Below are positions 28,095 through 60,661 of a stretch of DNA of 64,000 nt, piece by piece. Location: contig NC_049988.1 of the NCBI RefSeq assembly GCF_000003815.2, positions 12,957,926 to 13,021,925 on the forward strand, given 5' to 3'. The stretch's first letter is position 1. Each line of letters starts with the position of its first letter. A program made the position numbers and the translations under genes. The notes under the pieces are model-generated. The model saw only the letters and a list, made by a program, of their open reading frames with translations. It made no database searches and had not been told where the DNA came from. Origin of the DNA: Branchiostoma floridae. Lineage: Eukaryota > Chordata > Leptocardii > Amphioxiformes > Branchiostomatidae.

Positions 28095-29033
28095 TGTNNN
28101 NNNNNNNNNNNNNNNNNNNNNNNNNNNNNNNNNNNNNNNNNNNNNNNNNNNNNNNNNNNNNNNNNNNNNNNNNNNNNNNNNNNNNNNNNNNNNNNNNGCT
28201 TAACATATAACAGTCAGTTGCAAATAACTTGGGATGTTCTGCTATACTGGCAGAGGCACATAGTGAGGGTAATAGGTGAAACGAACTATCAAGTGACCGC
28301 AACGCCCTGAAGGAATAACTTCACAGATGGTGAAGGACTCAGTCTGTAACAGTCAATGACTCAGTCTGTAACAGATGTATACAGTCAATGTGGGGTGTAG
28401 TCTCGTAGATACATATGGCACAAGAGGAGTTCATACGTGTGCAGAAGAATTGTAGTTCGTGCATTGAATTCGAACCCTCCCCGTTTGTCGGAGCGTCCGA
28501 CGCCCGGGGATGCGTAGAAGACGTTAGATGACCCTCAGAGATGTGTGACGCGAGAAGAAGCTGGCCTCCGGTGCAGCAATCTTGTACACGCCGAAACGCG
28601 GCTCAGAGAAGCAGGGTTGTTGGATACCTGTCTACCTACGTCTTGAGAGGAAAAGCCGTCATGAGGCTTGTCACAGCTTTTAAACCCGGCGACCAAACGC
28701 ATTTGAGTAGAGACTGTCCTTAGAGAGTCGCGGAGCAGCAACTGGTAGACTTGAACGGCTGATCATAGGCCAACTTTCATGAGGAAACACTGTNNNNNNN
28801 NNNNNNNNNNNNNNNNNNNNNNNNNNNNNNNNNNNNNNNNNNNNNNNNNNNNNNNNNNNNNNNNNNNNNNNNNNNNNNNNNNNNNNNNNNNNNNNNNNNN
28901 NNNNNNNNNNNNNNNNNNNNNNNNNNNNNNNNNNNNNNNNNNNNNNNNNNNNNNNNNNNNNNNNNNNNNNNNNNNNNNNNNNNNNNNNNNNNNNNNNNNN
29001 NNNNNNNNNNNNNNNNNNNNNNNNNNNNNNNNN

Positions 29034-32000
29034 TTGGCTGGCTACTCCTGTGCGGAAGCCTTTCCATAGGAGTGTCGCTGTATAACTGGCTGGCAAACTC
29101 CTGTGGAGGAAACATTGTAGGATTGTCACTGTTGCACACCTGGCAAGCGAACGTCGGTGAGGAAACGCAGTCCGAAGGAGCGTCGCTGATGAACTGACTA
29201 ACTCTATGAGGAAACACTGGTCAGGGGAGTGTCCGCAGGAGTGGCACAGTATGACTGGCAAACAAACTCTTGTGAGGAGACTAGGTCCGTGGGAGTGTCA
29301 CTATGTAATAGCTGACGAGCTACCTCCTGTAAGGAAGCACTGTCCGTAGGAGTGTAACTGTTGAACTTGTGAACTAACTCCTGTGAGTATGATGCGCGTA
29401 GGAGTGTCACTGTTTAACCGGCTAGATAACTCCTGTGAGGAAAACTCTGTACGTAGAAGTGACACTGTTTAACTGGTTAGCTAACTCCTGTGAGGAAACT
29501 AGGTCCGTAGGAGTGTCACTGTTTAATTGTCTAGCTAACTCCTGTGAGGAAACACTGTCCGTAGGAGTGTCACTATTTAACTGGTTAGCTAACTCCTGTG
29601 AGGAAACTAAGTCCGTAGGAGTGTCACTGTCTAACTGGTTAGCTAACTCCTGTGAGGAAACTAAGTCCGTAGGAGTGTCACTGTCTAACTGGTTAGCTAA
29701 CTCCTTTGAGGAAACTATGTCCGTAGGAGTGTCACTGTTCAACAGGCTAGCTAACTCCTGTGAGGAAACACTGTCCGTAGGAGTGTCACTATTTAACTGT
29801 CTAGCTAACTCCTGTGAGGAAACTAAGTCCGTAGGAGTGTCACTGTTTAACTGGTTAGCTAACTCCTGTGAGGAAACTAAGTCCATAGGAGTGTCACTAT
29901 TTAACTGGTTAGCTAACTCCTGTGAGGAAACTAAGTCCGTAGGAGTGTCACTGTTTAACTGGTTAGCTAACTCCTGTGAGGAACCACTGTCCGTAGGAGT
30001 GTCACTATTTAACTGTCTAGCTAACTCCTGTGAGGAAACTAAGTCCGTAGGAGTGTCACTGTTTAACTGGTTAGCTAACTCCTGTGAGGAACCACTGTCC
30101 GTAGGAGTGTCACTATTTAACTGTCTAGCTAAGTCCCGTGAGGAAACTAAGTCCGTAGGAGTGTCACTGTTTAACTGGTTAGCTAACTCCTGTGAGGAAC
30201 CACTGTCCGTAGGAGTGTCACTATTTAACTGTCTAGCTAACTCCTGTGAGGAAACTAAGTCCGTAGGAGTGTCACTGTTTAACTGGTTAGCTAGCTCCTG
30301 TGAGGAACCACTGTCCGTAGGAGTGTCACTATTTAACTGTCTAGCTAACTCCTGTGAGGAAACTAAGTCCGTAGGAGTGTCACTATTTAACTGTCTAGCT
30401 AACTCCTGTGAGGAAACTAGGTCCGTAGGAGTGTCACTGTTTAACTGGTTAGCTAACTCCTGTGAGGAACCACTGTCCGTAGGAGTGTCACTATTTAACT
30501 GTCTAGCTAACTCCTGTGAGGAAACTAAGTCCGTAGGAGTGTCACTGTTTAACTGGTTAGCTAGCTCCTGTGAGGAACCACTGTCCGTAGGAGTGTCACT
30601 ATTTAACTGTCTAGCTAACTCCTGTGAGGAAGCTAAGTCCGTAGGAGTGTCACTGTTTAACTGGTTAGCTAACTCCTGTGAGGAACCACTGTCCGTAGGA
30701 GTGTCACTATTTAACTGTCTAGCTAACTCCTGTGAGGAAACTAAGTCCGTAGGAGTGTCACTGTTTAACTGGTTAGGTAACTCCTGTGAGGAACCACTGT
30801 CCGTAGGAGTGTCACTATTTAACTGTCTAGCTAACTCCTGTGAGGAAACTAAGTCCGTAGGAGTGTCACTGTTTAACTGGTTAGGTAACTCCTGTGAGGA
30901 ACTATGTCCGTAGGAGTGTCACTGTTCAACTGGCTAGCTAACTCCTTTGAGGAACCACTGTCTGTAGGAGTGTCACTGTTTAACTGGTGAGCTAACTCCT
31001 GTGAGGAAACTATGTCCGTAGGAGTGTCACTGTTTAACTGGCTAGCTAACTCCTGTGAGGAAAATTCTGTCCGTAGGAGTGTCGCTATTTAACTGGCTAG
31101 CTAAACTCCTGTGAGGAAACACTGTCCGTAGGAGTGTCACTGTTTAACTGTCTAGCTAAACTCCTGTGAGGAAACACTGTCCGTAGGAGTGTCACTGTTT
31201 AACTGTCTAGCTAACTCCTGTGAGGAAATTAAGTCCGTAGGAGTGTCACTGTTTAACTGGTTAGCTAACTCCTGTGAGGAAACTAAGTCCGTAGGAGTGT
31301 CACTGTNNNNNNNNNNNNNNNNNNNNNNNNNNNNNNNNNNNNNNNNNNNNNNNNNNNNNNNNNNNNNNNNNNNNNNNNNNNNNNNNNNNNNNNNNNNNNN
31401 NNNNNNNNNNNNNNNNNNNNNNNNNNNNNNNNNNNNNNNNNNNNNNNNNNNNNNNNNNNNNNNNNNNNNNNNNNNNNNNNNNNNNNNNNNNNNNNNNNNN
31501 NNNNNNNNNNNNNNNNNNNNNNNNNNNNNNNNCTGGCTAGCTAACTCCTGTGAGGAAAACTCTATCCGTAGGAGTGTCACTATTTAACTGGCTAGCTAAA
31601 CTCCTGTGAGGAAACACTGTCCGTAGGAGTGTCACTGTTTAACTGTCTAGCTAACTCCTGTGAGGAAATTAAGTCCGTAGGAGTGTCACTGTTTAACTGG
31701 TTAGCTAACTCCTGTGAGGAACACTGTCCGTAGGAGTGTCACTATTTAACTGTCTAGCTAACTTCTGTGAGGAAACTAAGTCCGTAGGAGTGTCACTGTT
31801 TAACTGGTTAGCTAACTCCTTGAGGAAGCTATGTCGGTAGGAGTGTCACTGTTTAACTGGTTAGCCAACTCCTTGGAGGAACTATGTCCGTAGGAGTGTC
31901 ACTATTTAACTGTCTAGCTAACTCCTTTGAGGAACTATGTCCGTAGGAGTGTCACTGTTGAACTGGCTAGCTAACTCTTGTGAGGAAACTAAGTCCGTAG

Positions 32001-32390
32001 GAGTGTCACTGTTTAACTGGTTAGCTAACTCCCGTGAGGAACCACTGTCCGTAGGAGTGTCACTGTTGAACTGGCTAGCTAACTCTTGTGAGGAAACTAA
32101 GTCCGTAGGAGTGTCACTGTTTAACTGGCTAGCTAACTCCTGTGAGGAAGCTATGTCCTTAGGAGTGTCACTATTTAACTGTCTAGCTAACTCCTGTGAG
32201 GAACCACTGTCCGTAGGAGTGTCACTGTTCAACTGGATAGCTAACTCCCGTGAGGAACCACTGTCCGTAGGAGTGTCACTGTTTAACTGGATAGCTAACT
32301 CCCGTGAGGAACCACTGTCCGTAGGAGTGTCACTGTTCAACTGGCTAGCTAACTCCTGTGAGGAAACTATATGTCCGTAGGAGTGTTAGC
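29034..32390. repeat. 54-bp minisatellite array (arm 1)
   Basis: The unit is 54 bp, recognisable by 'ccgtaggagtgtcactgttt', 'aactggttagctaactcctg' and 'tgaggaaactaagt'. Two main variants alternate over much of 29900-30900 (..ctggttagc..gaaccactgt / ..ctgtctagc..gaaactaagt), giving a 108-bp dimer. Units degrade towards both edges, where single-base deletions break the 54-bp register. A 226-base gap (31307-31532) lies inside. Because 54 is divisible by 3, long frames are open on both strands. Confidence 0.95.
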
Positions 32391-32524
32391 CAGCTGTGAG
32401 GAAATAAACCGCTGGGGTTACACTTGGCGAGCCAACTCCTGTAAGGAAACACTGTCCGTAGGATCCAACATTTCAAACCCGGAGAGGAAACACTGTCCAC
32501 GAAACCAACTGTGGGTACAGGAAC

Positions 32525-32716
32525 ATGGCAAAATACGAGCCGGCGGTGTCAGTCTTCGCTGGATATTGGCAGACATATTATCTCAATATGGCGAGTCTAG
32601 TGTTCGTTGGCGCACAGAAGGACTCAATTAGACAGGGGGTCTGGATGGTGTTGACAGTCGCAATCCTGACCCTACCAATCTTGTTAGGTAATCCCGTACG
32701 ACAGAGGTGTTTATAA
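32525..32716 (+). other. 63-codon frame with a hydrophobic segment, arm 1 copy
   Basis: MAKYEPAVSVFAGYWQTYYL begins the frame, and GVWMVLTVAILTLPILLG near the C-terminus would be a membrane helix. The arm 2 copy (55674-55865, minus) differs by one residue. It sits at the inner edge of the minisatellite. Nothing similar is known to me and translation is unproven. Confidence 0.2.
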
Positions 32717-32880
32717 TAATGAAGGGTCACGGTGTAGAGATCGTAATGAAGTACGTCTGCCCGAGCGGAAGGACCCACTCNNNNNNNNNNNNNNNNNNNN
32801 NNNNNNNNNNNNNNNNNNNNNNNNNNNNNNNNNNNNNNNNNNNNNNNNNNNNNNNNNNNNNNNNNNNNNNNNNNNNNNNN

Positions 32881-33621
32881 AGGAGGGTCACCCGTGCCTT
32901 TATGTACACATTTCAATGTGCCAAGGCTTGGCCTGCGTCTCCCCAAGACAACATATGACGGCGCAGACAGCGCAAGGTAGGAACTTGTACGGCAGGTTTT
33001 CCCTCTTTCTCTGTGTTTTTAGGGTCAGTTGTTGAAACCGTTGTGATCTAACTACACGAAGAGGTATTTTCTTACCTAAAGTATAGGAGTGTTGCCGGAA
33101 ATCAGGCTAAAATTTATTTGGGAACTTATACAGAACATCAAACTCCAGTAAAAAATGTAGATTAAAGTGTGCTACAAGATCAGTCTTACTTTTGCTCCAT
33201 TTTGCAGAATTATCCCAGGAGTAAGGTTTACAGGATCACGATATGTTATTCACTAGATAACAGCCTGTGAATAATGTAATTTCTTTTTTATTCACAAGAA
33301 CGTCCAGTCAATTCATCTCTAATAGTTCTCCACTCGAATGAGGACTTGTTTTTGCCTGCTCAACGTATCAAAAGCAAATCTAACATCTATGAAAAGTAAC
33401 ATTATTTACGTGATCATATTTTTACTGCAATAATGGGCATTATAAACTGTCAAAGTGTAATGTAACATTTAGTCCAGTATTATTTTCTCATTGTAAATTA
33501 TTTCCTTGTCACTATAACATTACAGGTTGCCTGCAGACAAGACCACTGGCAGGTTAAATCAGGCCTCAGAAAAGTGCTCCTGTCTGTTTAAATTCTGCTG
33601 AAGGTAGTCCAAGAAGCAGAC
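32881..33621. other. upstream region of the oxygenase-like gene
   Basis: No gene is seen. A splice-acceptor-like 'cattacag' at about 33526 precedes 'gttgcctgcagacaagacca', so the last 90 bases before the start codon may be the 3-prime part of a leader exon. No TATA or CCAAT box stands out. Confidence 0.35.
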
Positions 33622-36600
33622 ATGAAGATAACTCAAGTGTTAGCAGTGCTATCTGCAGTTCTATTGGCCCACTGTACACAGTTTGAGGACATGGACAAGA
33701 AAATATTTCAGGGTGAGGATGGACAGTCAGTCGTTGTCCTGGACAATGTCTTGTCAAAAGCCGCTGTGGATGCGTTGTACCAGTACACTTACTCAATGTT
33801 TGCCCAGTGGGAGTACACACACGTCACCTCATCACCGGAGATGTTTGAGAAACCTCCTTTCATATCCCCGCTGTCGGGAGAGATGATCATGAAGACGTCG
33901 TTATGGGAGGCAGTCGAAGATACCTTGGAAAAGTTGGCGGGGAAACAGGAGTACTATCCGTACGACATCCACGCGACAATTCTGCGTAGATATGACAGGC
34001 TACAGCCAAAGGTTCACTGTGAGGAAGGGGAGTTCATGGCAAAAATGTACCTCAGTCACTACGTTGGTAAAAACGACTACGGTCACCTGACGCTGTACAA
34101 TGGCAAACACGAAAATCTTACGGAAACCTTGACAGCTGTACACCCAAAACATGGTCGTTTGGTAATTTGGCCATGTGCCGTGCCAGCAATTGAACATCCT
34201 CCCTCCATGGGATACAAGCAGATGATACATGCGCTAACTCTGAAGATAACTACAAGCAAAGAAAAGTTTGGGGAGTACGAGAAAAAGGTGCAAGGGTTCA
34301 AGTTGCTGAGTGGTGAAAATGAGAAAGCTCCCTTTGCTTTGAGTCAAGGAGTAAAATTACAGAAGGAAGTCACAGACTTGGACTTGGACAAGTTGCAGAC
34401 GCAAAGGTGTGTATAAGGAAAAATTCGCTTTTTCTAGAGTGCCTTTTTAATAAACTGGTATGTTAAAACATCAGATAGATTTACAGTGTGAATGTCATAT
34501 ATAGACTAGACAACTTTTACCTTTTTTGTTATCAATTGTCCCAATGCAGTTAGTCTTGGGTAACATTATGAGTTTGAGAATCTTTAAAGGCAGAAAACAT
34601 GTTTTAAGACCAGTTTTGCACAGAGGTTGACTGTTAAAAGGCATAAAATGGTATCATGTTGAACAGTCAGCTTGAATACCTCAGAATCTTTGAGATGAAA
34701 AATGTTGATCATTGTGTGGTGTTGCCTATGATGGGCGGAGGTATGTAAACCTAAGGAAGCTTTGTCAAACAAACACTGTTCAGAACTATGTTTAGCTGGT
34801 AAACTCTGTGGGGTGTTGAATAACTCTAGTCAGTGACAGAAAATCCACATACAGTTGTATATTATAAAAAACTAAAGTCATGCTTCGGTTGCACCGAAAG
34901 GAAGATGCAGTGAGCTAATACTGAATTTGCTCTCAAGATGTGACAAACCACCAAATCATATAATGATTATTATACTATGATATTGGAGCTTGTCACTGAA
35001 ATGGCAATACCTATTTTGTAATTAATAATATCTAATTCGACAAACCATGAAGTGTCATTGCTACTATCTAACCTGACTGATGAGTTTTGTCTTGTTGTAG
35101 GTTCTATGACAGTAGAGGGCGTGTGATCGCGGTCTATGATGGTGTGTTTGGAGATGAAGACCTGGAGTCCCTCCACTCCTACCTGAACAGCATGTTCCAG
35201 AACCTGATATTCAGCCCACATGACACTGAGCTGTTAGAAGACAACGACAACGTCCAGTGGATCACAAACTTTAATGTATGGCACACTCTAGGGTCTGCCT
35301 AAACACCTCAAACTATCTTAAATGGCTCTAACATGCTGTGTACATGGGGCTATGACCTTGTGTGACGCTCAGAATACTGTCGTCTGTAGACTAAAGAAGG
35401 CATCAAGAACTTCTCCATGCAGACTCCTAACACAGACGATCCAACATGATGGCCAGACATTGCCTCGATCTTGAAACTGGCAGACAAACTACAAACGTTG
35501 AACTTGCTGCATTTTTTAAATTCATAAATGTATAAGCAATCATTCAGAGTGCCACACAAGGTTGTTGCATTGAATACACTGCATATTAGAGCCATTTAAG
35601 GTCATTTGAGGTATTTAGGCAGACCACAAACTCTACAACTGTCTAGATATGACAGAAAAACAATTATTATCCGAGCAACAGTTGATAATATCATGAAACT
35701 GTCTAATGAGAAAAGTTATTTTTCACATTCGGCATTTACTACAGCCCTACTGATATGACAAACTTTGAAATTTGCATGACCCTCCCACAAGGCTTTAGAT
35801 AAGATCATGAATCCTATTTCTTGTTATTATTGTATATATAGGACTCCATTGTGTTTATCAATATCACACACAGGTTGAGAGTTTTGTGAAGAGTAGGGTG
35901 TGGAATGTTGTCAGCCACGTTGCAGACCACGTTAGCAACGCGACAAACTGGTATCCGTACGACGTGGCGATGAATGTGATTCGCAGCGCAGACTACACCA
36001 GGATCCACGAGGACTGTGAGGTTCATGAGTTTGAGTACACCTTCCTGCTGTATCTCAACAAGGACTGGGAGGTGAGTTCATCATTGTGACATCTATTAGC
36101 CTTTGGGTGATCGGACCCGCAGTCGGGCTGGTACCTTGCGTGATAAGGAATACAACATGTTGTATTCTATATGTAATGTCATAAGTATTGACTGAGTACA
36201 AGTGTATTTACCATAGCCATTCCCTTAGAAGTTAAAGCACAGTGTCACACAGTTATACACAATGGTAGGCTGAGTAAGAAGCTAATAAATGCTTCCTTTC
36301 TTCCCAGTCCAACAAGTACGGAGAGACGGTGTTTGTAGAGCAGGTTAGCGATGACATGTGGCACGGCAAGCTTGGACCGGGGAGCGAGCAATATGAGATG
36401 GTGGCTGCAGTACGACCGCGCTACGGCAGGATTGTCATTTTTAGGGTATGCTGCGTTTATGTCATTTTATTTATAGAATTTATGTTTGTTGATGTCCCCA
36501 CAATCATTATGTTGATCATTATGGCATAGTCTTTATCTAACATCCTATCAGAAGCTAGGTACTCATTTTAACCTGAGTGAAGTGAGGAAAGTTGTGTAAA

Positions 36601-37867
36601 ATGCCTTTCCCAAAGGAACAAGATTGGTGACACGGCATGGTTCAAACCCGGACCTCTTGGGACTGAGCCCAATGCACTGCCGATTATGCCATGTAATCTC
36701 ACTACTGTCTATGTTTTAGAATAAAACTGTAACGTTGTGATCTTTGGGTTATTTCTTTCATGTAATGATCATCACAATTTAGAAAAGCAGGCTAATATTG
36801 TTGCTAAAGGCTCAGGCTGTGTTCTTTGTTTTATCCTAGAACATCATTCCGCACTCCGCGCGGCCTCCGGTCGGCACGTTTGACGGAGCCCGCTACACTT
36901 TCGCGGTGAAAGTCTCCCAGACGCGTACGAGAGCAATGGCCAAGACCCTGCGGGAAAGCCTGGAGTTCGGTGGAGAGGGGCAGGAGGAACTTGTGGAACA
37001 ACTCCTGAGGGGAGAATTTGATCACCCAAGACAAGGTGGGCTATGTAGTCTCATATAATCTCCAGGCAGATCTACTAGTGGCATAAGGAGTTTAGCTAAA
37101 ACACTCGGTGGTTCTGAACACTCCTTGGCTAGCTAAACTCCTTAATATGCCACCAGTAGATCTGCCTGGAGATTAGTCTCATATTTTATCCATGCAGATC
37201 TTCGATTTCCTGTGGTAAAATCATTGCTACCGAATAAGGCTGCTGTGGCTCATTGACACAGTAACAATTTTGCCACAAGAAGATTTTGGAGATAACTCTT
37301 TTTCAGTGTTTACAAGTTACAGTGAGGCATAGTCACATGAAGAACTCATTGATTATCTCTGCCCAGGCTAAAAAGTTAAAGCTAAAGTTGCCCAACATGA
37401 CAGAACAAGGAGGCAAGGACGCCATCCTCCCTGATCAGAAGATGCATTGGGCCTGGCACCTATCTCAGTGTCAAAGCCCTGGGCCAAGCACACATAGGCG
37501 CAAACACTACAGCAGGGGGCTAGTCCACTGGTAGTGTAGTGTGTTTAGCTTCCATACTCTTGTACCATGTACCATTTTTAAGAGTCTTTGGTATGACCCG
37601 GCTACAGCATCCAGTCTGCCTTGGTGGACCTGACTGCACGTTGCTTAAATTCCGAGATCAAGGAATCTGGTGTATCACGGTCGTAGCCTCTTTGCCCAGG
37701 CACTATGACTAAAAGTGTAACCTCTCACAAGTTGTTTGTTTGTTTGTTTACCAGATGTACCAGCTGACTTCTTGGACAACAAGCTACAGGAGACACAGGA
37801 ACATAAGAAGAACTTCATACAGGAAATCCGAGAAAAGGCAGAGGACATGCTGATGGCTAAAGCTTAG
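33622..37867 (+). CDS. secreted protein with two prolyl-4-hydroxylase-like 2OG-Fe(II) oxygenase domains (six exons, 534 aa)
   Basis: Exons are 33622-34406, 35101-35275, 35874-36071, 36308-36445, 36840-37035 and 37755-37867. All borders are GT..AG and the joined frame is open. A signal peptide (1-20) points to the secretory pathway. Domain 1 (about 35-215) lies entirely in exon 1; domain 2 (about 265-460) is split over four exons. Domain 2 shows the fold's signature: H365-E-D367 (HxD), PRYGRIVIF, H437 in IIPHSARPP, and R450 in GARYTFAVK, fitting iron and 2-oxoglutarate binding. Domain 1 is a diverged repeat: WYPYD matches YYPYD, and PKHGRLVIW matches PRYGRIVIF. However, the metal motif is H132-C-E134, H192 is kept, and the basic residue is not evident. 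The C-terminus (about 500-534) is charged and helical. Prolyl-4-hydroxylase family enzymes hydroxylate proline using 2-oxoglutarate and O2; the substrate here is unknown. The start is the first ATG, directly before the signal peptide. Confidence 0.85.
36590..36695. repeat. SINE-like fragment in intron 4 of the oxygenase-like gene
   Basis: 'tgcctttcccaaaggaacaa' and 'ggttcaaacccggacctctt' followed by 'gcccaatgcactgccgatta' resemble the tRNA-like B box and trailing part of common invertebrate SINEs. A related piece is near 62395-62500 (gatttgaacccaggacctct). Ends unresolved. Confidence 0.4.
37056..37175. mobile_element. 120-bp hAT-type MITE in the last intron of the oxygenase-like gene
   Basis: TAATCTCCAGGCAGATCTAC (37056) and its near reverse complement ending GGAGATTA (37175) form arms of about 44 bp. 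The flanks are identical 8-mers, GTCTCATA at 37048-37055 and 37176-37183. An 8-bp target duplication is typical of hAT transposons. The insertion lies 20 bp after the exon 5 end. Confidence 0.85.
37450..37640. repeat. interspersed repeat (SINE-like), copy 2
   Basis: Diverged relative of 15515-15830, sharing 'gccctgggccaagcacacat', 'acactacagcagggggctag', 'tgtaccatttttaagagtct' and 'ttggtatgacccggct'. It lies in the last intron of the oxygenase-like gene. Confidence 0.5.
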
Positions 37868-42260: not shown

Positions 42261-42263
42261 TGT

Positions 42264-42365
42264 GACAGCGATCTCGCCCCCCCCCGCGATCTCGCCCCCA
42301 CGGGGGGCGAGATCTCTAGCGTTTTCACCCCCCTCTGGTGTTTTCGCCCCCCCCTAGAGATATAG
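42264..42365. repeat. C-rich palindromic low-complexity block
   Basis: Alternating 'gcgatctcgccccc', 'ggggggcgagatctctagcg' and 'ttttcacccccc' pieces related to the larger block at 44414-44800. Self-complementary and dominated by C and G homopolymers. Confidence 0.7.
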
Positions 42366-42435
42366 TGTTTGTTTTCTAGAGAGAGAGATAGATTTTTATT
42401 TATAGAGAGGGGGTGATAATTATCAATGTATATTT

Positions 42436-42442
42436 ATGTATT

Positions 42443-42511
<69 letters not shown>

Positions 42512-42620
42512 TTTTGTATATATATATACTTATATATATAGGGTTTACAAGGGAAATATATATACTTTTGTATATATGTACTTATAGATATATACTTATA
42601 GATATATGTATATATACTTT
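42436..42620. repeat. (TA)n microsatellite with TATACTTTTG variants
   Basis: More than 70 bp of TA dinucleotide, then several 'atatacttttgtatatata' units. A long Tyr/Ile frame across it is an artefact of the repeat. Confidence 0.9.
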
Positions 42621-44800: not shown

Positions 44801-44910
44801 TTTAAAAAAANNNNNNNNNNNNNNNNNNNNNNNNNNNNNNNNNNNNNNNNNNNNNNNNNNNNNNNNNNNNNNNNNNNNNNNNNNNNNNNNNNNNNNNNNN
44901 NNNNNNNNNN

Positions 44911-47900: not shown

Positions 47901-50900
47901 ATTTTGACACTTCTTTTGAGAAAAAGGGACTCATAATCTTTCTAACACAGCACGACTTATCCGTCAGTCCTTTCATACATATATCTACCAGTGAAACAAT
48001 CATGACCTACGCCCATGTACTGCATAGTTTGGTGGGGTGGGAGTACACGGGTTATCTCAATATCATGGTTTCTCTACCCCTCCGCCATGACCGCTTGTGG
48101 TATGTCCCCAAGCCAATATCGTCTGCAGGGTCAGGTGTAGATAACGCAACAAAAAATGTTATCTATCCAACGGGGATACGGGTCATTTCCGACGTTCCTT
48201 ACCTTTCAGATACAGTATATCCGGTATGAAATACTGCACATTGCATGCATAGTGTTATTCGCACTACTTCATGTACTGTAAGAAACAAAACTAGNNNNNN
48301 NNNNNNNNNNNNNNNNNNNNNNNNNNNNNNNNNNNNNNNNNNNNNNNNNNNNNNNNNNNNNNNNNNNNNNNNNNNNNNNNNNNNNNNNNNNNNNNNNNNN
48401 NNNNNNNNNNNNNNNNNNNNNNNNNNNNNNNNNNNNNNNNNNNNNNATAATCTATTGAGATTTCTTTACCAATGTCAAGCAGTTTTAAACAATCAACGAG
48501 ATGTCGTTAAGCGGAGTTTGATATTAAAAATGAGTTAGTGTTGACATTGATTTCTTTTCAACTTGTAAAAAATGAAATCTGATAAGAGTAGTTGTATGCA
48601 CGAAAACGACCCCTTCAATTTTTGAATATGGAACAGTCCATATCATGCGAGACAAGTTTGTGAATGATTCAATCAGACGAGACTAACGTAACATCAATTT
48701 GTCGCGGTAAAACTCGTTTGCAGATATTTGGTATCGAATGAGGGCAATTCATGTAAGACGACCGTCTGTGATTGTTGAATTGATTTTTCTGAAACGAAAA
48801 TCATCATACGCTACAACAAAATTGTAAGTGCATATGATATTCTGGGTTTTCCTTTCTCATGAAAAGGCGGGGCAGGCAGAAAACGCTACGGTCTTACCCT
48901 CTCAATATCTGCTTGGAGATCAGATATCAACAAGCGCTGCACGTTTTACGGCACGCCTAAATGTCGTCTTGACCTAGATAATTGCCAGTCCTCTGAAAGG
49001 AGGTTAGGTCATCACGCATCTGTTGACAATTATCTACATTATGGGTCGTTAACCTCAGGTGAGAAAGCAGATACCTACAATACATTGGGGTCACTAAAAA
49101 TCAAAATGCGCTTTTCGCCATTTGGTAACAGTTGCTGGAGATTTGGCCATGGATAACAAATGCCCCCCCCAAAAAAAAATCAACCGAAAAAAATATTGGC
49201 ACAAAAAAGGGACGTCCACGTAACAAATTTCAACTAAAATATGCAGATATTGTGTGCATTTCACCCCATCAATATAAAAAGGAACCCCGTTTAAAACAAG
49301 GATGTGCTGTGTATGTCGGTGCACCTTTTTCAACCACACAAGAACGGGAACGCCACGTGCTTTCCGAAATAGGATCACATAGCCGTTGGGAATTCAATTT
49401 TCATTAATTCAATTCCGGTATTAAATCCTTAAGATGACAATTTATTTAATTTCGAGAGATGTCCCAGAAAGCTGGTTTGAGGACATTTGAAATTGCACCT
49501 GCGACATAACACCTGTTTCTGTCAGTAAATACAAACAACACACGGACTTACGACTCTCGTCGGCATTATCAACACTCTTCAAAACGTTTATGTAGAAGCA
49601 CTTTTTTGTCAGACGCGAGCCGCCCGTGCGGGTGACCTTTCAGATCAATTGAGAACTTTTTCAAGTGGAGATATTGTTCAGTCAAACATGTCTGACTCGA
49701 CAAGCTAGTCTGGTGTGGTGTTGTGGCTTCAAAAACATGGCTCGTTATCACCCCCCTCCCCCATTCCCGACAAAGACCACGTTGTGTTCGTCTGTAAGTC
49801 AACGCGGCTCAGCTCAGACGTGACGTGACCAGGGAATAAGGGTGCAGACAGAAAAGAAACGATCTTTATTCTTGTGCCACTTAACTTTTCCGGACGGACT
49901 TATTTGGCGAGGACCCTGCTAGCCTGTTTTCTCTCGACCAAGCATGTCATGGCCGCCTGGCAAACAGGCATGTGAGGCTCCACGGTTGTGGGGTAATCTC
50001 CTGTATGGAGTACTGAGTACTGTCTCACAATAAGTCTGGCATCAAGGCTATTATGAGAAAAAGTGGAAGTTTATGACAGGCATCACCGCACTTATACGCT
50101 TGTCGCAAATTCAGACCACAGATCAGATCACATTGCTCTTGCATGTCGTTTTGAATATTTGTCATACTCGTCAACATACCAAATTTATGTACATACACCG
50201 CATGAGTCATAATCTTTTCTTATCAAGTTACTAGCTCAATGATAAAGTTAAAGGAATGAACAGTAATCAATGCAACATGTATGATGCAACGTTGCAACCT
50301 TAACGTTTTTTTCTCGTGCGCCATTGACAGATTTTCGTAGATTGGGTGTGACGAGTAGTGTCAAAGTTCGCTTCAGATGATGCCCCCTATCCACTTAAAT
50401 CGATAATACATGATCGACCCCCTCCCCAATGACATGGAGAAATACTTTTGACCATGCCTCACCCAGTTGCATACTACATGGCGAACAAACTTTGTACGCA
50501 ATTCATCATCGTGTGTAACCCAGATATTTCATGTTCGTGACGGCTTTCGTGTGTTAATCGTGTCTGACTACGTGCTGAGCTAACTCGCCTTGTACTGCAG
50601 CAAAATAACAGTCACCACCGCCACATGCCTTTCAAACGCAATAATGCGAAATACAGACTTCGTACTCGTGTTTTTTTGCCCACATACCAAAGCAATGAGG
50701 TCTTTTGATAAGCTCCCTTCACATGTAAACAGAAGTTATACGCAAAAACAGTTGGCAGAGCTCTATTGAAATCTAGTGATTCATGTTACATGTGCCGGAG
50801 GGCTGGAAATTCATGTGTTGCTTGTACACTTGCATATATAATTGTGTTAGCCTTGGCTCAAACCGTTTATGTATCACACACATGTTTAATAGCGCTCAAA

Positions 50901-51583
50901 GTAGTCGGGCGTTTACTTACCACGGTGTCCCCAGTCTGCTTTACGCTTACAACTTGCACGCTGCCGTCATCTTTCTTCTTGTTCCTTCCGCCCAGGCTGA
51001 AAGAGAGTTTGTTCCCCATGTTGGCTGCAGAATGGAGGTCACCTCGCCTTCCAGTCTTCTGTAAACACTGCTGTCTCTCTGTCCTGTCGTCAGCGCCGGT
51101 CGGGGTCGTGTTACGGACTCGTCAGTCGGTCGGCCCTTTCTTCGCCCCTCGCAAGCCTAAGGCTGGTCGGCTTTCAAAATCCGTTTTTGGCGGAGGCTTG
51201 GAAGAAAGAGTTAATGGACTAGCCCGTTATGTTTCCAGTCTGAATCTTAGTGTGACGAGTCTGTTCTCACTGGAAAGCGTGGTGAAACTGGTCGCTGCCC
51301 CTCCCCGACACACACACATGCGCACGCCCGATCCAGAGGTTCTGTCTCTCCGCACAGGTGACGAAACGATGCGTCAGACCTCGTCACTGATTAAACCAAA
51401 TTCATAAACCCTGGGTTATCGCTGCTTGGGGCATGTCCATTTCTTCACAGAGGGCTGAAAAACCAAGTTATCAAAAAGCAGGATGGATGATGGGCAAGTG
51501 GAAAGAATTTGTGCCATCTAAATCACGTTGGTCGTACTACAGTTGCGACATTGTGATCATAGTGGTTTGAGGTAGAGCAAATG
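44911..51583. other. no gene recognised
   Basis: Two gaps (46074-46711 and 48295-48446) interrupt this stretch. Paired CCAAT motifs (gaccaatgacagcac, gaccaatgagagag at 46990-47035) could belong to a promoter without an identified gene. 'gccgtcatc', then 'ccacggtgtccccag' near 50910-50940 reads as a donor (ggggacaccg tggtaagt) on the minus strand, but no coding exon could be attached. Confidence 0.35.
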
Positions 51584-53690
51584 TTACACAGTGCCTCGAG
51601 GGNNNNNNNNNNNNNNNNNNNNNNNNNNNNNNNNNNNNNNNNNNNNNNNNNNNNNNNNNNNNNNNNNNNNNNNNNNNNNNNNNNNNNNNNNNNNNNNNNN
51701 NNCTTGGCGAATGCCTTTCTTTAAGGGAAAGAAGTCAGATAACCATCCTCTATTACTGATGGTGCTACTAATGTCATTATACATGCATTTTATTGCACTG
51801 ATAAACGAGGGGCCAAAGTTAAATTTTTCTAGAACCTTCCACATAAATTTTCTATTCAAAGTGTCAAAAGCTTTAGTAAAATCCAGGAATATTACTGCTC
51901 CAGGGATATTTTGAGTTTTAGCATATTCAATAACATCATTAATTAGTCTTACATTTTGTCCAATGAATCTACCCTTGATATAAGCTGTTTGGTCATTATT
52001 AATCAACTTGTGTAAAACTTTCTTAAGTCTGTTGGCAAGAACAAAGGCAAATATTTTATATTCAGTGTTGAGAAGGCTAATTGGTCTCCAATTGTCTAGG
52101 TTGTGGCGTTCATTTTTTTGTGTATTAACCTTAGCATTGCACGTCTTTGCAAAACAGACATTTTACCTTCTATCAATGTTTCCTGAATAGAATTATAAAC
52201 TAGGTCTCCTATATAGGGCCAAAACATCTTAAAAAATTCTGAGGGAATGCCATTAAGGCCAGGGCTTTTGTTTTCTTTCATAGAGAAAAGGGCATCCTTA
52301 CATTCATCTTTAGTAATTGGTTTATCTAAGCGTACCGTAGTCTAAAGGGCACAATATATTTTCTANNNNNNNNNNNNNNNNNNNNNNNNNNNNNNNNNNN
52401 NNNNNNNNNNNNNNNNNNNNNNNNNNNNNNNNNNNNNNNNNNNNNNNNNNNNNNNNNNNNNNNNNATCTGAGTCTCTACTAATCTCTCTCCCATCAATGG
52501 ATAACAAGTTAATATCCTTGTCACTTCCTCTTTTCTTTTCCAAGTTTAAGAAGTACTTAGTAGGTTTTTCCCCCTCTTCTCTCCATTTGGCTCTAGCTCT
52601 TACATATGCTCCATGTGATTTTTTCATATAAAGGTCTTCTAATCTAGATTGTGCTTGCTTGTAGCTAAGTACTAGTATATGGTCATTAGTGGGATTATTA
52701 TCTATTTCACTTTGAAGGGAAGATAGTTTTTTCTCTTGAACCTCTCTATCTGTTCTCTGCTTTCTCTGGCTTTCTTGGCTCCATATTGTTTTGAAAACTC
52801 AGTTACTTTAATCATACATAAATCTAGTTTATCTCTATTTGATGTAGTGGTCTTATTACTCTCTTGTTGAATTAAGTTACAGATTTTCTCAAAGTATTCT
52901 TTGTCTCTTAATAAATCTACATTTAATTTAAAGTTCCAGGGCCTCTGGCACAGTTATGGAATTTGAGTTTTAGAAATATAGCTTGGTGGTCAGTAAGTAT
53001 TGCAGGTCTTATATCACATTTGCCAATTTTTCCTACAAGGGTCTTGTGAATTAGCCAAAAGTCTAGTCTACAGGCTACATTTTTTGTAAGGTTACGCCAA
53101 GTAAACTGTCGGGTGGTGGGGTTAACTAACCTATAGGCATCACATATTTCTAATCTAGAACATAGCTTTTTCACAACTTTAGCAGACCTTCCTGCAGTAT
53201 CTAGTCTACCCTCCCTTTTTATCAAATTCAGGATTCAATTCACTGTGAATTTATATCTCCACCACAAATTAGGTTAGTGGGGTCTAAGCTACTTAACCAA
53301 TCTGACAGTTTCATAATAAAGGTATTTCTTTCTTTAACTCTATTTGGGGCATAAATGTTAACTAAGCAAAACTCTGTATCATCAATGGTGCATTTCAGTA
53401 GAAGGGTTCTTCCATTATTGTCTTAGGTACTTACAGTCTACTAACATAAAATTGGCTGAAGGCTTAATCAATATTGCTACCCCCCTGCTACAATTAGATC
53501 CGAAGGCTTGAAAACAAGGGCCTTGCCATTCTCTAGATAAAACATCTCTTGTCTCTGCAGTGAAATGCGTTTCTTGAAGGAAAACTATGTCAGCCTTTTG
53601 GTTTTTTACATATGATAACGGGAGGGGGCCATACTTCGACACCCGTTCTAAGTGGATGCGCATGGCTTTTGTCAATGTACATTTTACAGT
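51584..53690 (-). mobile_element. broken LINE retrotransposon, L1/Tx1-like, minus strand
   Basis: From 53675 down: an APE-type endonuclease fragment (KADIVFLQETHF, 53675-53415), its C-terminal part with RLDFWLIHKT and TDHQ (53225-52923), and the linker RAKWREEGEKPTKYFLNLEK (about 52590). Then come reverse-transcriptase start motifs NKSPGLNGIPSEFFKMFW (about 52270) and DQTAYIKGRFIGQN, and VIFLDFTKAFDT (about 52000-51880). Stops, frameshifts and two 100-N gaps (51603-51702 and 52366-52465) separate the pieces, and the catalytic YxDD part is absent. The clade call rests on the RT motif style and is tentative. Non-functional. Confidence 0.9.
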
Positions 53691-53699
53691 GAACTCATC

Positions 53700-54357
53700 A
53701 AAAACAAGTTAAGATCTTGTATACATCCATATAACTGTTATTGAAGCTGTACAGATATATATTTCATTTCACAGCAGCGTTCCGCACTGTACTTTGACAG
53801 CGCACGAAACTTACGGCAGGTTTTCGGCTTGCGTCCTAGCAGAACGTTCCAACACAAACAAGACTGGCAATAAAAATGTATTATTGCCATGACGACGATT
53901 GAGGGTACAACAATACAGCTCAAATCAGAAATAGACTGGAACTTCCCTGTCGCACTATCCCTGGCACAATATACTAGCCCACCTGTAACACAAACCTACA
54001 GCCAGCAGAAATGTACTATCCCCGGTACAGCACAATGGTCTGCCAGTGACCTAAACCTACAGCTGAGCACTACAGAATTATTTCCTGTCTGCCTGTGGCG
54101 TATGGCTTGAACAAGCTCTAGAAAAGAAAATGTATCCTTCATAACATAACATAACAACCAAGACAACGTGATCCATTGTGCAGAGTTCCCTGTCTAGTTT
54201 CAAAGGACAAATTCCTCCAGGGAGCAAGTGTGACCTACATTCCACCATTGCATACCAGAGATACATCTGGAACAGATTTGGGGGGGAGGGCTTGCATACC
54301 CAGCATACTGCATTCCTGTGGAAATGCCTGTGCAATTCCTAGAATTTTTGCAGACTG
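53700..54357. other. no gene seen
   Basis: Sequence upstream of the LINE with respect to the LINE's own direction. No internal promoter or target duplication was found. Short open frames only. Confidence 0.4.
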
Positions 54358-54449
54358 AATGCAAAATATACCACTTGACGACTCCCCTGAGGCGTCGTCA
54401 ATGAATGCAAAATATACCACTTGACGACTCCCCTGAGGCGTCGTCAAAA
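54358..54449. repeat. 46-bp tandem duplication with a hairpin
   Basis: 'tgaatgcaaaatataccact' followed by 'tgacgactcccctgaggcgt' and 'cgtca' occurs twice back to back with no difference. Inside each copy 'ttgacgac' and 'gtcgtcaa' flank a 10-bp loop, so each can fold. Confidence 0.9.
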
Positions 54450-54968
54450 AGGGGTCCAAAGTCCGACATAGTAACAACCAGACCATCGCCGTGCATTTTT
54501 AAACAACTTATGCAAATAGAATAGCACTAAAAGTCTTCATTATAATTTTTTTGTACCAAATATGGGTCATATTTTGTAATACGCGACTTATTCAAATACG
54601 GTGTGTTAAAACGTTTACCTCTCACGGTGAGACCAACTTGCCGCAAAACGGCAGCGCATTGTTACGTTAGACTGTGATGGCATTTTCGCTTTTCGGCTTC
54701 CTTGATTGCCTTTTCATCCTGTCTTTTGGCAGCAGCAATGGCTACAGGATTTTTTAGTCGGTAGGGATCGATTTTTCTTGAATGTTTGTCGCTCGACGGA
54801 CGGGTTGACTGAGTTCAACGTGTTGAGCATCGCTCGCCCGCCTTCGTGCGTGATAGTAAAATGGCGGGGCCCCGACTGCGTGAACATTGTGGCATCATTT
54901 TAGCTCCGTTTATCCAACCCAGTTAAAGGCAGAACAGAACACAGGTATTATTTTTAGGAAGGCTAATA

Positions 54969-55126
54969 GGAAATATGTGAGCGTATGCGCAGATCACATT
55001 AGTTAATTAGCGCCTCGAACGCTGACCTCACGTGACACAACCAGCAGCCCCCGCCAGGGAGGCCAGTCGCGTCAGGATGCGCTCGTCACGTCATCAGCAA
55101 ATCTTACTGTAGCGTAAATGTTTCAC
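54969..55126. repeat. 158-bp direct repeat, copy B1
   Basis: From 'ggaaatatgtgagcgtatgc' to 'agcgtaaatgtttcac'. It is repeated, apparently without change, at 60764-60921. The two copies lie on either side of arm 2, in the same orientation. The sequence is GC-richer than its surroundings (gcagcccccgccagggaggc). Confidence 0.9.
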
Positions 55127-55342
55127 GGTATCCCCGGCCCACGGCTTGTCGATGAGCCTTGCAAGCAGGCGACGATTCAGTCGTGGTGTCCCCAGTTCGT
55201 GTTTTGAGGCCGGGATTCTGATAAACTTGATTCTCTTCCTCAACACCGGGCACATGCGGACGTGCCGGACGATCTCACCAGTCACGGGTGACCGTCGGTT
55301 TTTCACGTCGCCTTCGCCGTCACTCATCCCAAGATTCGCCAT
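55094..55342 (-). other. unidentified 82-codon open frame
   Basis: Begins MANLGMSDGEGDVKNRRSP and contains VRHVRMCPVLRKRIKFIRI; basic overall. The last 14 codons lie in the 158-bp repeat B1. Composition is protein-like and the region is GC-rich, but other frames here are also open. Could be a first exon, a transposon fragment or chance. Confidence 0.2.
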
Positions 55343-55673
55343 TCACTCAGAAGGTGTCTCATGCCTGTGTAGTGAATCCTACTCTTTTCTTCCCGGACCA
55401 TCCTGCAGCGGGCGTCATGACTGAATGGAACCCTTCCTCTAGTGGCCTTCACCCCGCTCGCGCAAGTGGTAGGATCCAACCCGCGGCTGCCGGACTGCAG
55501 TAGTAGACCACCCACCGGGGTTGTTTACTGTTAACTCCAAGCTCGCAAAACCGTAAGTCACGCCAGTTCGGACGTTCTTTACTCACTACATAACTTTACT
55601 GGTGGATCCTAGATCGTGGTCCCGCTCGGGCAGACGTACTTCATTACGATCTCTACACCGTGACCCTTCATTA

Positions 55674-55865
55674 TCATAAACACCTCTGTCGTACGGGATT
55701 ACCTAACAAGATTGGTAGGGTCAGGATTGCGACTGTCAACACCATCCAGACCCCCTGTCTAATTGAGTCCTTCTGTGCGCCAACGGACACTAGACTCGCC
55801 ATATTGAGATAATATGTCTGCCAATATCCAGCGAAGACTGACACCGCCGGCTCGTATTTTGCCAT
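55674..55865 (-). other. 63-codon frame with a hydrophobic segment, arm 2 copy
   Basis: Same frame as 32525-32716 with Ser for Phe at one position (NMASLVSVGA). Here it is open upstream to 56018 through degraded minisatellite units (SVGVLASCEE, RANSCKETLSVG). A tail of the repeat frame is thus possible, but the frame is broken before the main array. Confidence 0.2.
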
Positions 55866-55989
55866 GTTCCTGTACCCACAGTTGGTTTCGTGGACAGTGT
55901 TTAACTCTGGGTTTGAAATATTGGATCCTACGGACAGTGTTTCCTTACAGGAGTTGGCTCGCCAAGTGTAACCCCAGCGGTATATTTCC

Positions 55990-58900
55990 TCACAGCTGGC
56001 TAACACTCCTACGGACATATAGTTTCCTCACAGGAGTTAGCTAGCCAGTTGAACAGTGACACTCCTACGGACAGTGGTTCCTCACAAGAGTTAGCTAGCC
56101 AGTTAAACAGTGACACTCCTACGGACTTAGTTTCCTCACAAGAGTTAGCTAGCCAGTTCAACAGTGACACTCCTACGGACATAGTTCCTCAAAGGAGTTA
56201 GCTAGACAGTTAAATAGTGACACTCCTACGGACATAGTTCCTCAAAGGAGTTAGCTAACCAGTTAAACAGTGACACTCCTACGGACATAGCTTCCTCAAA
56301 GGAGTTAGCTAACCAGTTAAACAGTGACACTCCTACGGACATAGTTCCTCAAAGGAGTTAGCTAACCAGTTAAACAGTGACACTCCTACGGACTTAGTTT
56401 CCTCACAGAAGTTAGCTAGACAGTTAAATAGTGACACTCCTACGGACAGTGGTTCCTCACAGGAGTTAGCTCGCCAGTTGAACAGTGACACTCCTACGGC
56501 CATAGTTCCTCAAAGGAGTTAGCTAACCAGTTAAATAGTGACACTCCTACGGACAGTGGTTCCTCACAGGAGTTAGCTAACCAGTTAAACAGTGACACTC
56601 CTACGGACTTAATTTCCTCACAGGAGTTAGCTAGACAGTTAAACAGTGACACTCCTACGGACAGTGTTTCCTCACAGGAGTTTAGCTAGCCAGTTAAATA
56701 GTGACACTCCTACGGATAGAGTTTTCCTCACAGGAGTTAGCTAGCCAGTTAAATAGCGACACTCCTACGGACAGAATTTTCCTCACAGGAGTTAGCTAGC
56801 CAGTTAAACAGTGACACTCCTACGGACATAGTTTCCTCACAGGAGTTAGCTCACCAGTTAAACAGTGACACTCCTACAGACAGTGGTTCCTCAAAGGAGT
56901 TAGCTAGCCAGTTGAACAGTGACACTCCTACGGACATAGTTCCTCACAGGAGTTACTAGTAGCTAACCAGTTAAACAGTGACACTCCTACGGCCTTAGTT
57001 TCCTCACAGGAGTTAGCTAGACAGTTAAATAGTGACACTCCTACGGACAGTGGTTCCTCACAGGAGTTCGCTAACCAGTTAAACAGTGACACTCCTACGG
57101 ACTTAGTTTCCTCACAGGAGTTAGCTAGACAGTTACATAGTGACACTCCTACGGACAGTGGTTCCTCACAGGAGCTAGCTAACCAGTTAAACAGTGACAC
57201 TCCTACGGACTTAGTTTCCTCACAGGAGTTAGCTAGACAGTTAAATAGTGACACTCCTACGGACAGTGGTTCCTCACAGGAGTTCGCTAACCAGTTAAAC
57301 AGTGACACTCCTACGGACTTCGTTTCCTCACAGGAGTTAGCTAGACAGTTAAATAGTGACACTCCTACGGACAGTGGTTCCTCACAGGAGTTAGCTAACC
57401 AGTTAAACAGTGACACTCCTACGGATTTAGTTTCCTCACAGGAGTTAGCTAGACAGTTAAACAGTGACACTCCTACGGACAGTGGTTCCACACAGGAGTT
57501 AGCTAACCAGTTAAACAGTGACACTCCTACGGACTTAGTTTCCTCACAGGAGTTAGCTAGACAGTTAAATAGTGACACTCCTACGGACAGTGGTTCCTCA
57601 CAGGAGTTACCTAACCAGTTAAACAGTGACACTCCTACGGACTTAGTTTCCTCACAGGAGTTAGCTAGACAGTTACATAGTGACACTCCTACGGACAGTG
57701 GTTCCTCACAGGAGCTAGCTAACCAGTTAAACAGTGACACTCCTACGGACTTAGTTTCCTCACAGGAGTTAGCTAGACAGTTAAATAGTGACACTCCTAC
57801 GGACAGTGGTTCCTCACAGGAGTTCGCTAACCAGTTAAACAGTGACACTCCTACGGACTTCGTTTCCTCACAGGAGTTAGCTAGACAGTTAAATAGTGAC
57901 ACTCCTACGGACAGTGGTTCCTCACAGGAGTTAGCTAACCAGTTAAACAGTGACACTCCTACGGATTTAGTTTCCTCACAGGAGTTAGCTAGACAGTTAA
58001 ACAGTGACACTCCTACGGACAAAGTTTTCCTCACAGGAGTTAGCTAGCCAGTTAAACAGTGACACTCCTACGGACAGTGGTTCCTCACAGAAGTTAGCTA
58101 GCCAGTTAGATAGTGACACTCCTACGGACAGAGTTCTCCTCACAGGAGTTAGCTAGCCAGTTAAATAGCGACACTCCTACGGACATAGTTTCCTCACAGG
58201 AGTTAGTTAACCAGTTAAATAGTGACACTCCTACAGACAGAGTTTTCCTCACAGGAGTTAGCTAACCAGTTAAACAGTGACACTCCTACGGACAGTGGTT
58301 CCTCACAGGAGTTAGCTAGCCAGTTAAGCAGTGACACTCCTACGGACCTAGTTTGCTCACAGGAGTTAGCTAGCCTGTTACACAGTGACACTCCTACGGA
58401 CATAGTTTTCCTCACAGGAGTTAGCTAACCAGTTAAACAGTGACACTCCTACGGACATAGTTTCCTCACAGGAGTTAGCTAGCCAGTTAAATAGTGACAC
58501 TCCTACGGACATAGTTTTCCTCACAGGAGTTAGCTAGCCAGTTAAATCGTGACACTCCTACGGACATAGTTTTCTCACGGGAGTTAGCTAGCCTGTTAAA
58601 CAGTGACACTCCTACGGACAGTGTTTCCTCACAGGAGTTAGCTAGCCAGTTAAATAGTGACACTCTTACGGACTTAGTTTCCTCACAGGAGTTAGCCAAC
58701 CAGTTAAATAGTGACACTCCTATGGACATAGTTTTCTCACAGGAGTTAGCTAGTCAGTTAAACAGTGACACTCCTACGGACAGTGTTTCCTCACAGGAGT
58801 TAGCTAGACAATTAAACAGTGACACTCCTACGGACAGTGTTTCCTCACAGGAGTTAGCTAACCAGTTAAATAGTGACACTCCTATGGACATAGTTTTCTC

Positions 58901-59780
58901 ACAGGAGTTAGCTAGTCAGTTAAACAGTGACACTCCTACGGACAGTGTTTCCTCACAGGAGTTAGCTAGACAATTAAACAGTGACACTCCTACGGACAGT
59001 GTTTCCTCACAGGAGTTAGCTAACCAGTTAAATAGTGACACTCCTACGGACAGTGTTTCCTCACAGGAGTTAGCTAACCAGTTAAACAGTGTCACTTCTA
59101 CGTACAGAGTTTTCCTCACAGGAGTTATCTAGCCGGTTAAACAGTGACACTCCTACGCGCATCATACTCACAGGAGTTAGTTCACAAGTTCAACAGTTAC
59201 ACTCCTACGGACAGTGCTTCCTTACAGGAGGTAGCTCGTCAGCTATTACATAGTGACACTCCCACGGACCTAGTCTCCTCACAAGAGTTTGTTTGCCAGT
59301 CATACTGTGCCACTCCTGCGGACACTCCCCTGACCAGTGTTTCCTCATAGAGTTAGTCAGTTCATCAGCGACGCTCCTTCGGACTGCGTTTCCTCACCGA
59401 CGTTCGCTTGCCAGGTGTGCAACAGTGACAATCCTACAATGTTTCCTCCCAGGAGTTTGCCAGCCAGTTATACAGCGACACTCCTATGGGCCGTGCTTCC
59501 TCACAGGAGTTAGCCAGCCAATTAAACATTGACACTCCTACGGACCGTGTTTCCTTACGGGAGTTAGCCCGCCGAGTGTTAACCCATAGGGCTCCGACGG
59601 TGTCTCCTCATAGTAGTTCCCTCGCGATCGCCAAGTGCTATAGCGTGACACTCCTTCATCACGGATGTTCGCTCGCTAAAGTGTCCAACATTGACCCTTT
59701 TACGGACAGTGTTGCCCCACTGGAGTTCGGTCTTCTGGTGTTCAAGATACGCCTACGGACAGTGTTTCCTCATGAAAGTT
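55990..59780. repeat. 54-bp minisatellite array (arm 2)
   Basis: Roughly 70 units, mostly 54 bp, keyed by 'agttaaacagtgacactcct' and 'acggacttagtttcctcaca'. A stretch of about 370 bp is repeated exactly 540 bp apart: landmarks at 57134/57674 (acatagtgacac), 57314/57854 (cggacttcg) and 57421/57961 (cggatttag). This is a ten-unit higher-order repeat. A second, 162-bp (three-unit) duplication occurs at about 58712/58874 (ctatggacatag). Edge units are degraded. Confidence 0.95.
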
Positions 59781-60661
59781 GGCCTATGATCAGCCGTTCA
59801 AGTCTACCAGTTGCTGCTCCGCGACTCTCTAAGGACAGTCTCTACTCACGTGCGTTTGATCGCCGGGTTTAAAAGCTGTGACAAGCCTCATGACGGCTTT
59901 TCCTCTCAAGACGTAGGTAGACAGGTATCCAACAACCCTGCTTCTCTGAGCCGCGTTTCGGCGTGTACAAGATTGCTGCACCGGAGGCCAGCTTCTTCTC
60001 GCGTCACACATCTCTGAGGGTCATCTAACGTCTTCTACGCATCTCCGGGCGTCGGACGCTCCGACAAACGGGGAGGGTTCGAATTCAATGCACGAACTAC
60101 AATTCTTCTGCACACGTATGAACTCCTCTTGTGCCATATGTATCTACGAGACTACACCCCACATTGACTGTATACATCTGTTACAGACTGAGTCATTGAC
60201 TGTTACAGACTGAGTCCTTCACCATCTGTGAAGTTATTCCTTCAGGGCGTTGCGGTCACTTGATAGTTCGTTTCACCTATTACCCTCACTATGTGCCTCT
60301 GCCAGTATAGCAGAACATCCCAAGTTATTTGCAACTGACTGTTATATGTTAAGCGTTAAGGTGCACCCCGTCCTTGTCGTTTTAGCCGATAGGTACGCCT
60401 TCTTTTCTTATCTAGTAGCCTATAGGTATGTATGCCTCGGACTTGTCTAGTTCACCTAGTACATGCGTGCCCTGTTCTTGCTAATTACTAGCTAGTTGAG
60501 TTAATATTTCGAGTACTAGCTAGTTGAGTTAATTTTTCGAGTACGATTGAAACTTGATTCTCGCCTCTACACTTTGTTAGCCGTCTGCCTTGCGCTCCCT
60601 CCACGCCTCTGCTCTCTCCACTCCAAACACCTCACTCCTCCTCCCTACGGGCTTGGTCCTG

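Follow-up and report, generated by a model that had tools for sequence, protein, structure and literature searches.

Two blocks of minisatellite-bearing DNA lie in inverted orientation around 23 kb of other sequence in a 64,000-nucleotide stretch of the Branchiostoma floridae genome (RefSeq assembly GCF_000003815.2, contig NC_049988.1, positions 12,957,926 to 13,021,925 of the forward strand; hereafter the window), which raises the question of whether they are the arms of one giant foldback transposon, or whether one of them is a misplaced piece of the other haplotype, the two options offered by an earlier sequence-only reading of this DNA. Our analysis leads to a different account of the blocks themselves, i.e., that both are very probably the interior of one family of non-coding split-direct-repeat (SDR) retrotransposons with Ngaro/PAT-like ends, a transposable element that the earlier interpretation missed. 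This degree of confidence does not extend to the origin of the first block (arm 1), for which the foldback option fails and the allele option stands as the best account, as weighed separately below.

We confirmed that the sequences at 28198-32780 (arm 1) and 55614-60354 (arm 2) are real inverted copies, with a 54-bp tandem array in both. Arm 1 28198-28793 matches the reverse complement of arm 2 at 60354-59759 (the right edge) with 99.33% identity over 596 bp, and arm 1 32386-32768 matches arm 2 at 56003-55622 (the left edge) with 97.9% identity over 384 columns. Tandem Repeats Finder (TRF) counted 58.3 copies of the unit in arm 1, with one 226-N gap within the array, and 65.7 copies in arm 2. 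Alignment of the two arrays paired 45 units, 28 with an identity of 98% or more, and showed gain and loss of whole units; alternating unit types occur along part of the arm 2 array. Three contigs make up arm 1, separated by two sized gaps, i.e., the 226-N gap and a 240-N gap at 28794-29033 just outside the array, and it is flanked on both sides by 100-N gaps; arm 2 lies within sequence that is ungapped from 52466 to the window end. The features of arm 1 are as follows:

28198-32780, minus strand: arm 1, the element interior without its ends, from a second copy or an allele (100-N gaps on both sides; homology to arm 2)
29230-32386, minus strand: 54-bp array of arm 1, about 58 copies, with the 226-N gap at 31307-31532 (TRF)
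28098-28197, no strand: 100-N gap, expected site of one arm 1 element end if the insertion is real
32781-32880, no strand: 100-N gap, expected site of the second arm 1 element end if the insertion is real

The sequence that surrounds arm 2 carries our interpretation. Self-comparison outside the arrays demonstrated that two sets of direct repeats surround this block, and base-by-base reading showed that the first pair (A1 and A2) is identical at 158 of 158 positions, and the second pair (B1 and B2) at 102 of 102. The end of B1 abuts the start of A2 exactly, and 15 bp separate A2 from B2, giving the element order A1-[unique part, 54-bp array, unique part]-B1A2-15 bp-B2. From this split-direct-repeat arrangement, arm 2 is the middle of a 6,070-bp element, with termini at 54969 and 61038 that lie 653 bp and 684 bp, respectively, beyond the sequence common to arm 1. 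The 100-N gaps reported earlier at the limits of arm 1 are therefore present, but the limit of homology is not set by arm 2: arm 1 just stops, and the arm 2 element runs on at both ends. The parts of this element are as follows:

54969-61038, plus strand: complete non-coding SDR element, 6,070 bp (A1..B1A2B2 topology, exact termini; same termini in other copies)
54969-55126, plus strand: A1, left terminal repeat, 158 bp (identical to A2)
55127-55621, plus strand: Lout, left internal non-repeated part, absent from arm 1 (96-98% in C10b, C4, C1 and C17, the copies described below)
55622-56003, plus strand: left edge of arm 2, common to arm 1 (full length in 6 genome places)
56003-59568, plus strand: 54-bp minisatellite array of arm 2, about 66 copies (TRF, translations, unit comparison)
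59759-60354, plus strand: right edge of arm 2, common to arm 1 (full length in 5 genome places)
60355-60661, plus strand: Rout, right internal part, absent from arm 1
60662-60763, plus strand: B1, 102 bp, abuts A2 (identical to B2)
60764-60921, plus strand: A2, 158 bp (identical to A1)
60922-60936, plus strand: A2-B2 spacer, 15 bp (same spacer in C4 and C1)
60937-61038, plus strand: B2, right terminal repeat, 102 bp (identical to B1)

The same element is found elsewhere in the genome. Our search of the assembly (513,431,437 bp in 431 contigs, including the window) gave 24 matches to the left edge, 6 of them full length and the other 18 fragments of at most 51 bp, and 7 matches to the right edge, 5 of them full length and the other two 73% fragments. 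These places are arm 2, arm 1, C10:17.317-17.321M (C10b), C4:15.769-15.774M (C4), C1:14.920-14.925M (C1) and C17:3.878M (C17, left half only), and a 54-bp array follows A1 in all four places outside the window. The three elements with both ends intact are 6,070 bp long in the window, 5,299 bp in C4 and 5,282 bp in C1, with 2,504, 2,507 and 2,611 bp, respectively, of non-array sequence by TRF borders, a near-constant length that places most of the difference in the array. The C10b copy could be followed up to A2, after which a gap takes in B2. The A and B repeats have at least 22 and at least 30 genome matches, respectively, both lower bounds, and from the listed places we examined the window copy and 23 further stretches (L011-L033), leaving out the weaker remaining places. 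Among these are a solo A-spacer-B unit at C2:7.866M (A 88%, B 86%), a deletion derivative at C2:23.67M, and a minus-strand sequence at C7:10.6M (L018, C7:10595200-10605000, approximately 4767-5154) in which Rout and most of the B repeat are joined to non-element sequence, an arrangement suggestive of a sister family whose core differs.

The copies end at common points. The left terminus GGAAATATGT is identical in five copies (arm 2, C4, C1, C10b and C17), and the right terminus GCAGATAATT in the three that are complete at both ends (arm 2, C4 and C1), while the 30 bp flanking the copies on each side are unrelated. No target-site duplication was visible by eye in these 30-bp flanks, at both ends of arm 2, C4 and C1 and at the left end of C10b and C17. 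Ngaro elements are not known to make a target duplication, and its absence is typical of Ngaro/PAT-type elements. Within copies, A1 and A2 show no differences in 4 of 4 cases, and B1 and B2 none in the 3 of 3 that are testable; between copies, A differs at 0-5 positions and B at 0-4, with the window and C10:17.3M copies showing no differences in A or B1. Repeats that are alike within differing copies are what would be expected if both were rebuilt from one template at each insertion, with young insertions, and the family may thus record the rebuilding of its repeats in each round. A non-autonomous Helitron or Helentron with an internal minisatellite would be another reading, as non-coding elements of this class can carry internal tandem repeats; we regard such an origin as highly improbable, as A1..B1A2B2 repeats that are identical within each copy have no known Helitron parallel.

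Could the two blocks instead be the arms of a single mobile unit? Inverted arms that hold short tandem repeats, with a loop between them, do superficially resemble the Drosophila FB and sea-urchin TU elements, and it was on this likeness that a giant foldback transposon spanning 28198-60354 had been proposed. In FB and TU elements, long terminal inverted repeats bound one mobile unit; here, no terminal inverted repeats surround a single unit, the element ends are direct repeats, and the two arms are two separate element interiors, with arm 2 inside an element that has its own termini. At C10:17.3M, C4:15.77M, C1:14.92M and C17:3.88M (left half), the block stands alone, the listed matches including no inverted partner; the ends of arm 1 are contig ends, and the loop contains a reverse transcriptase (RT) piece of a long interspersed nuclear element (LINE) and a likely oxygenase frame. 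Solitary copies inside split direct repeats led us to reject the foldback transposon, to which we assign next to no probability. Of the gene content once attributed to its loop, the LINE RT piece is present, and the oxygenase frame is likely, with a weak Pfam match below the cut-off. An apparent giant inverted repeat that is explained without a foldback is a caution for repeat annotation.

The LINE-like RT fragment (RVT_1) lies on the minus strand at 51700-52798 and is split by 100-N gaps. The window does hold a small foldback-like element, at 61746-62797, given the 26-bp tandem repeats in each of its arms (61762-61812 and 62731-62781). This 1.05-kb element has terminal inverted repeats of approximately 280 bp that are 87% alike, and is flanked by a 9-bp direct repeat, ACGTATGTC, read by eye at 61737-61745 and 62798-62806, which we take to be as in Mutator-like miniature elements.

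We found no coding capacity that would allow the SDR element to move by itself. Outside the array, it has no open reading frame (ORF) longer than 117 aa, the 117-aa ORF has no Pfam match, and neither an RT nor a tyrosine recombinase was found inside the element by ORF and Pfam analysis. The array has one open frame per strand through many units (498 and 495 aa). A protein-coding array was considered and rejected: of 5000 shuffled 54-mers of the same composition, 66% were open on both strands, so that this openness is expected by chance, and differences between units, counted over those of exactly 54 bp, do not favour third codon positions (35/58/58 for the three positions in 40 units of arm 1, and 35/74/75 in 45 units of arm 2). 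There was no Rfam match in the window at the gathering threshold, and a plasmid collection gave, as expected, no match to the left edge. Since the element is non-coding, its enzymes would have to be supplied in trans. Tyrosine-recombinase enzymes do exist in this genome, as the PF00589 model has at least 51 matches, 49 of them without stops.

Several results count against our interpretation of the blocks. None of the 51 listed recombinase matches is within 200 kb of a listed A or B place, the nearest being 215 kb away; 20 ORFs beside related A/B places contain no RT or recombinase domain by Pfam; and 3.5 and 4.0 kb of sequence at two recombinase genes, upstream sides left out, contain no A- or B-like ends. 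Among the listed A/B and recombinase places, themselves lower bounds, an autonomous partner with these termini was thus not found. In addition, gene conversion could be another source of the repeat identity within copies.

The Pfam matches among those 20 ORFs are NXPE4_C, a weaker GDSL lipase and Neurexophilin (all in L024) and HIT (L030), with the others weak and below or near the cut-off. In L024 (C4:19755500-19765400), the NXPE4_C match and the weaker GDSL lipase match belong to a minus-strand ORF at 3093-3881 whose end adjoins an A-B type end; the Neurexophilin frame is upstream. The ORF is probably a host NXPE-type gene; it deserves attention because an SGNH hydrolase frame is reported for some Ngaro elements (PMC9210276).

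How such an element could spread can be outlined as a cycle in which each step is conditional. An RNA copy of the element would be reverse transcribed by the enzymes of an autonomous relative, with the B1-A2 joint serving as the template from which a circle, its B end joined to its A end, would be rebuilt. A tyrosine recombinase would then insert this circle without target-site duplication, and the array would ride along, growing and shrinking by gain and loss of units. As a more speculative extension, to which we give limited credence, the minisatellite may have replaced the coding interior and now travel with the mobile unit; reverse transcription and tyrosine recombination would then seed minisatellite loci genome-wide, and every copy would retain the array because of a role in transcription, packaging or circle formation. 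The locus matters, in our view, as a case in which a non-coding SDR retrotransposon consists mainly of a minisatellite that it disperses. Our phrase searches of the open literature, with most subscription journals outside it, found neither split direct repeats combined with a minisatellite nor a non-autonomous Ngaro/DIRS element, and open literature on amphioxus minisatellites and transposable elements, judged by title, held nothing on such a combination.

Other A and B ends lie near unrelated arrays, at C1:16.48M and C12:5.49M, a hint that minisatellite capture may have happened more than once. At the first (L016, C1:16471000-16480500), a 120-bp A fragment at 4651-4770, immediately next to a 100-N gap, is enclosed by blocks of a different minisatellite (10/95-bp unit, CACTCT-like). 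The second (L023, C12:5490500-5500400) has a 111-bp tandem array and, 1.2 kb further downstream, a B-type end (86-88%), at 4582-6104 and 7290-7420; this may be a further split-repeat element that carries a minisatellite of its own.

It remains to ask where arm 1 comes from. Arm 1 is the element middle only, and its missing ends amount to 653 bp (A1 and Lout) and 684 bp (Rout, B1, A2 and B2). Three derived sites join arm 1 with arm 2 (left 10, right 305 and right 526) and none conflicts; no site groups arm 1 or arm 2 with C10:17.3M or C17 against the other, and C10:17.3M and C17 share left 356. The right edge of arm 1 is closest to that of arm 2 (4 vs 6). These three shared sites, together with contig ends that fall inside the element and the placement at 23 kb, favour the reading of arm 1 as a misplaced allele that had been suggested before, and although it is unproven, we lean towards arm 1 being the other allele of arm 2, i.e., an alternate assembler branch that would have ended up wrongly oriented and 23 kb from its proper position. 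The C7:10.6M sequence, whose Rout junction falls no more than two bases from where arm 1 breaks off, offers a plausible reason for the contig end, since assembly paths may diverge there.

Other observations fit less well with allelism. The left edge of arm 1 is no nearer to arm 2 (5 mismatches) than to C10:17.3M (4) or C17 (5), so that allelism rests on the three sites, two of which have no C17 comparison as this copy has no right edge. The ends of arm 1 are themselves absent from the assembly. Exact unit variants common with arm 1, counted without units that contain N or reach 70 bp, favour arm 2 weakly, at 19 of 50 in arm 2, 11 of 40 in C10:17.3M, 8 of 26 in C17, 1 of 47 in C4 and 1 of 42 in C1.

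Left-edge distances to C10:17.3M and arm 2 that are approximately equal would also suit a genuine second insertion, in opposite orientation and 23 kb from arm 2, the missing ~0.65 kb per end being inside the 100-N gaps, which, from their uniform size, probably stand for arbitrary lengths; moreover, at least four further copies of the family are placed in the assembly. We consider this unlikely, because a genome of 513 Mb with six such places would have two of them 23 kb apart only by coincidence, the three derived sites unite arms 1 and 2, and none of the 22 listed A matches adjoins arm 1. The same left-edge distances (4 to C10:17.3M and 5 to C17, as small as the 5 to arm 2), the similar unit-variant shares of these copies, and the absence of a right half from the C17 copy could instead mean that arm 1 is an allele or collapsed branch of another copy (C10:17.3M or C17:3.88M), drawn to this position by its repeat content. 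This we judge to be rather improbable, given that the three sites tie arm 1 to arm 2 and none ties it to C10:17.3M or to C17, which has no sequence at two of them.

The C17 copy (L014, C17:3872000-3881500) breaks off within its array at approximately 8206, straight into other sequence without a gap, and is either a truncated copy or an assembly join. A 163-bp tandem repeat at 4588-5014 of the window has a similar 163-bp array on another chromosome, at 739-1323 of the same L014 stretch, and these arrays may be a dispersed tandem family. Three stretches of C19 (L020, L021 and L022, at 0.38, 0.41 and 0.86 Mb) have pieces of 1.7-3.3 kb in common at 95-98%, with one B-type end each, reflecting either segmental duplication or misplaced alleles.

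Split direct repeats in the order A1-interior-B1A2B2 are described for Ngaro, PAT and VIPER elements (PMC8547959, PMC9210276, PMC4157794, PMC6681497), and in our family A1 is at one end and B1-A2-B2 at the other, with A1 equal to A2 and B1 equal to B2, in the window, C4 and C1 copies, which are complete, and in C10b up to A2. Its dispersed copies have exact common termini without target-site duplication, and an encoded RT/RNase H and tyrosine recombinase were not found. Ngaro elements, of the DIRS order, are alike in their A1-[interior]-B1A2B2 order, their length of approximately 6 kb and their isolated A-B units (PMC8547959, PMC9210276), and the solo unit and the deletion derivative on C2 resemble the isolated units of the former (PMC8547959). 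The amphioxus element differs in that no gag, RT/RNase H or recombinase was found in it, and its interior is mostly the 54-bp minisatellite. Ngaro-like elements and relics, one of them with an unusual split-repeat arrangement, have already been reported from amphioxus (PMC2632668). Elements of the PAT, Toc and VIPER type share split direct repeats, but their described members are classified by coding domains (PMC4157794, PMC6681497), so a non-coding amphioxus family is indistinguishable from them. SIRE, a truncated relative of VIPER, is likewise a non-autonomous derivative of a split-repeat element and corresponds to the A2-B2 region, but it is a short A-B unit, for which the consulted part of its description mentions no internal array (PMC6681497). 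Since Ngaro and PAT are told apart by whether a methyltransferase domain is present and by RT and recombinase phylogeny, all of which depend on coding sequence, we file the amphioxus family as a non-coding element of Ngaro/PAT architecture, and not as an autonomous member of either group. TOC1 of Chlamydomonas reportedly has split terminal repeats, no obvious RT and internal tandem repeats with a unit of approximately 76 bp, and this element of an unrelated host would be the nearest precedent for the family described here.

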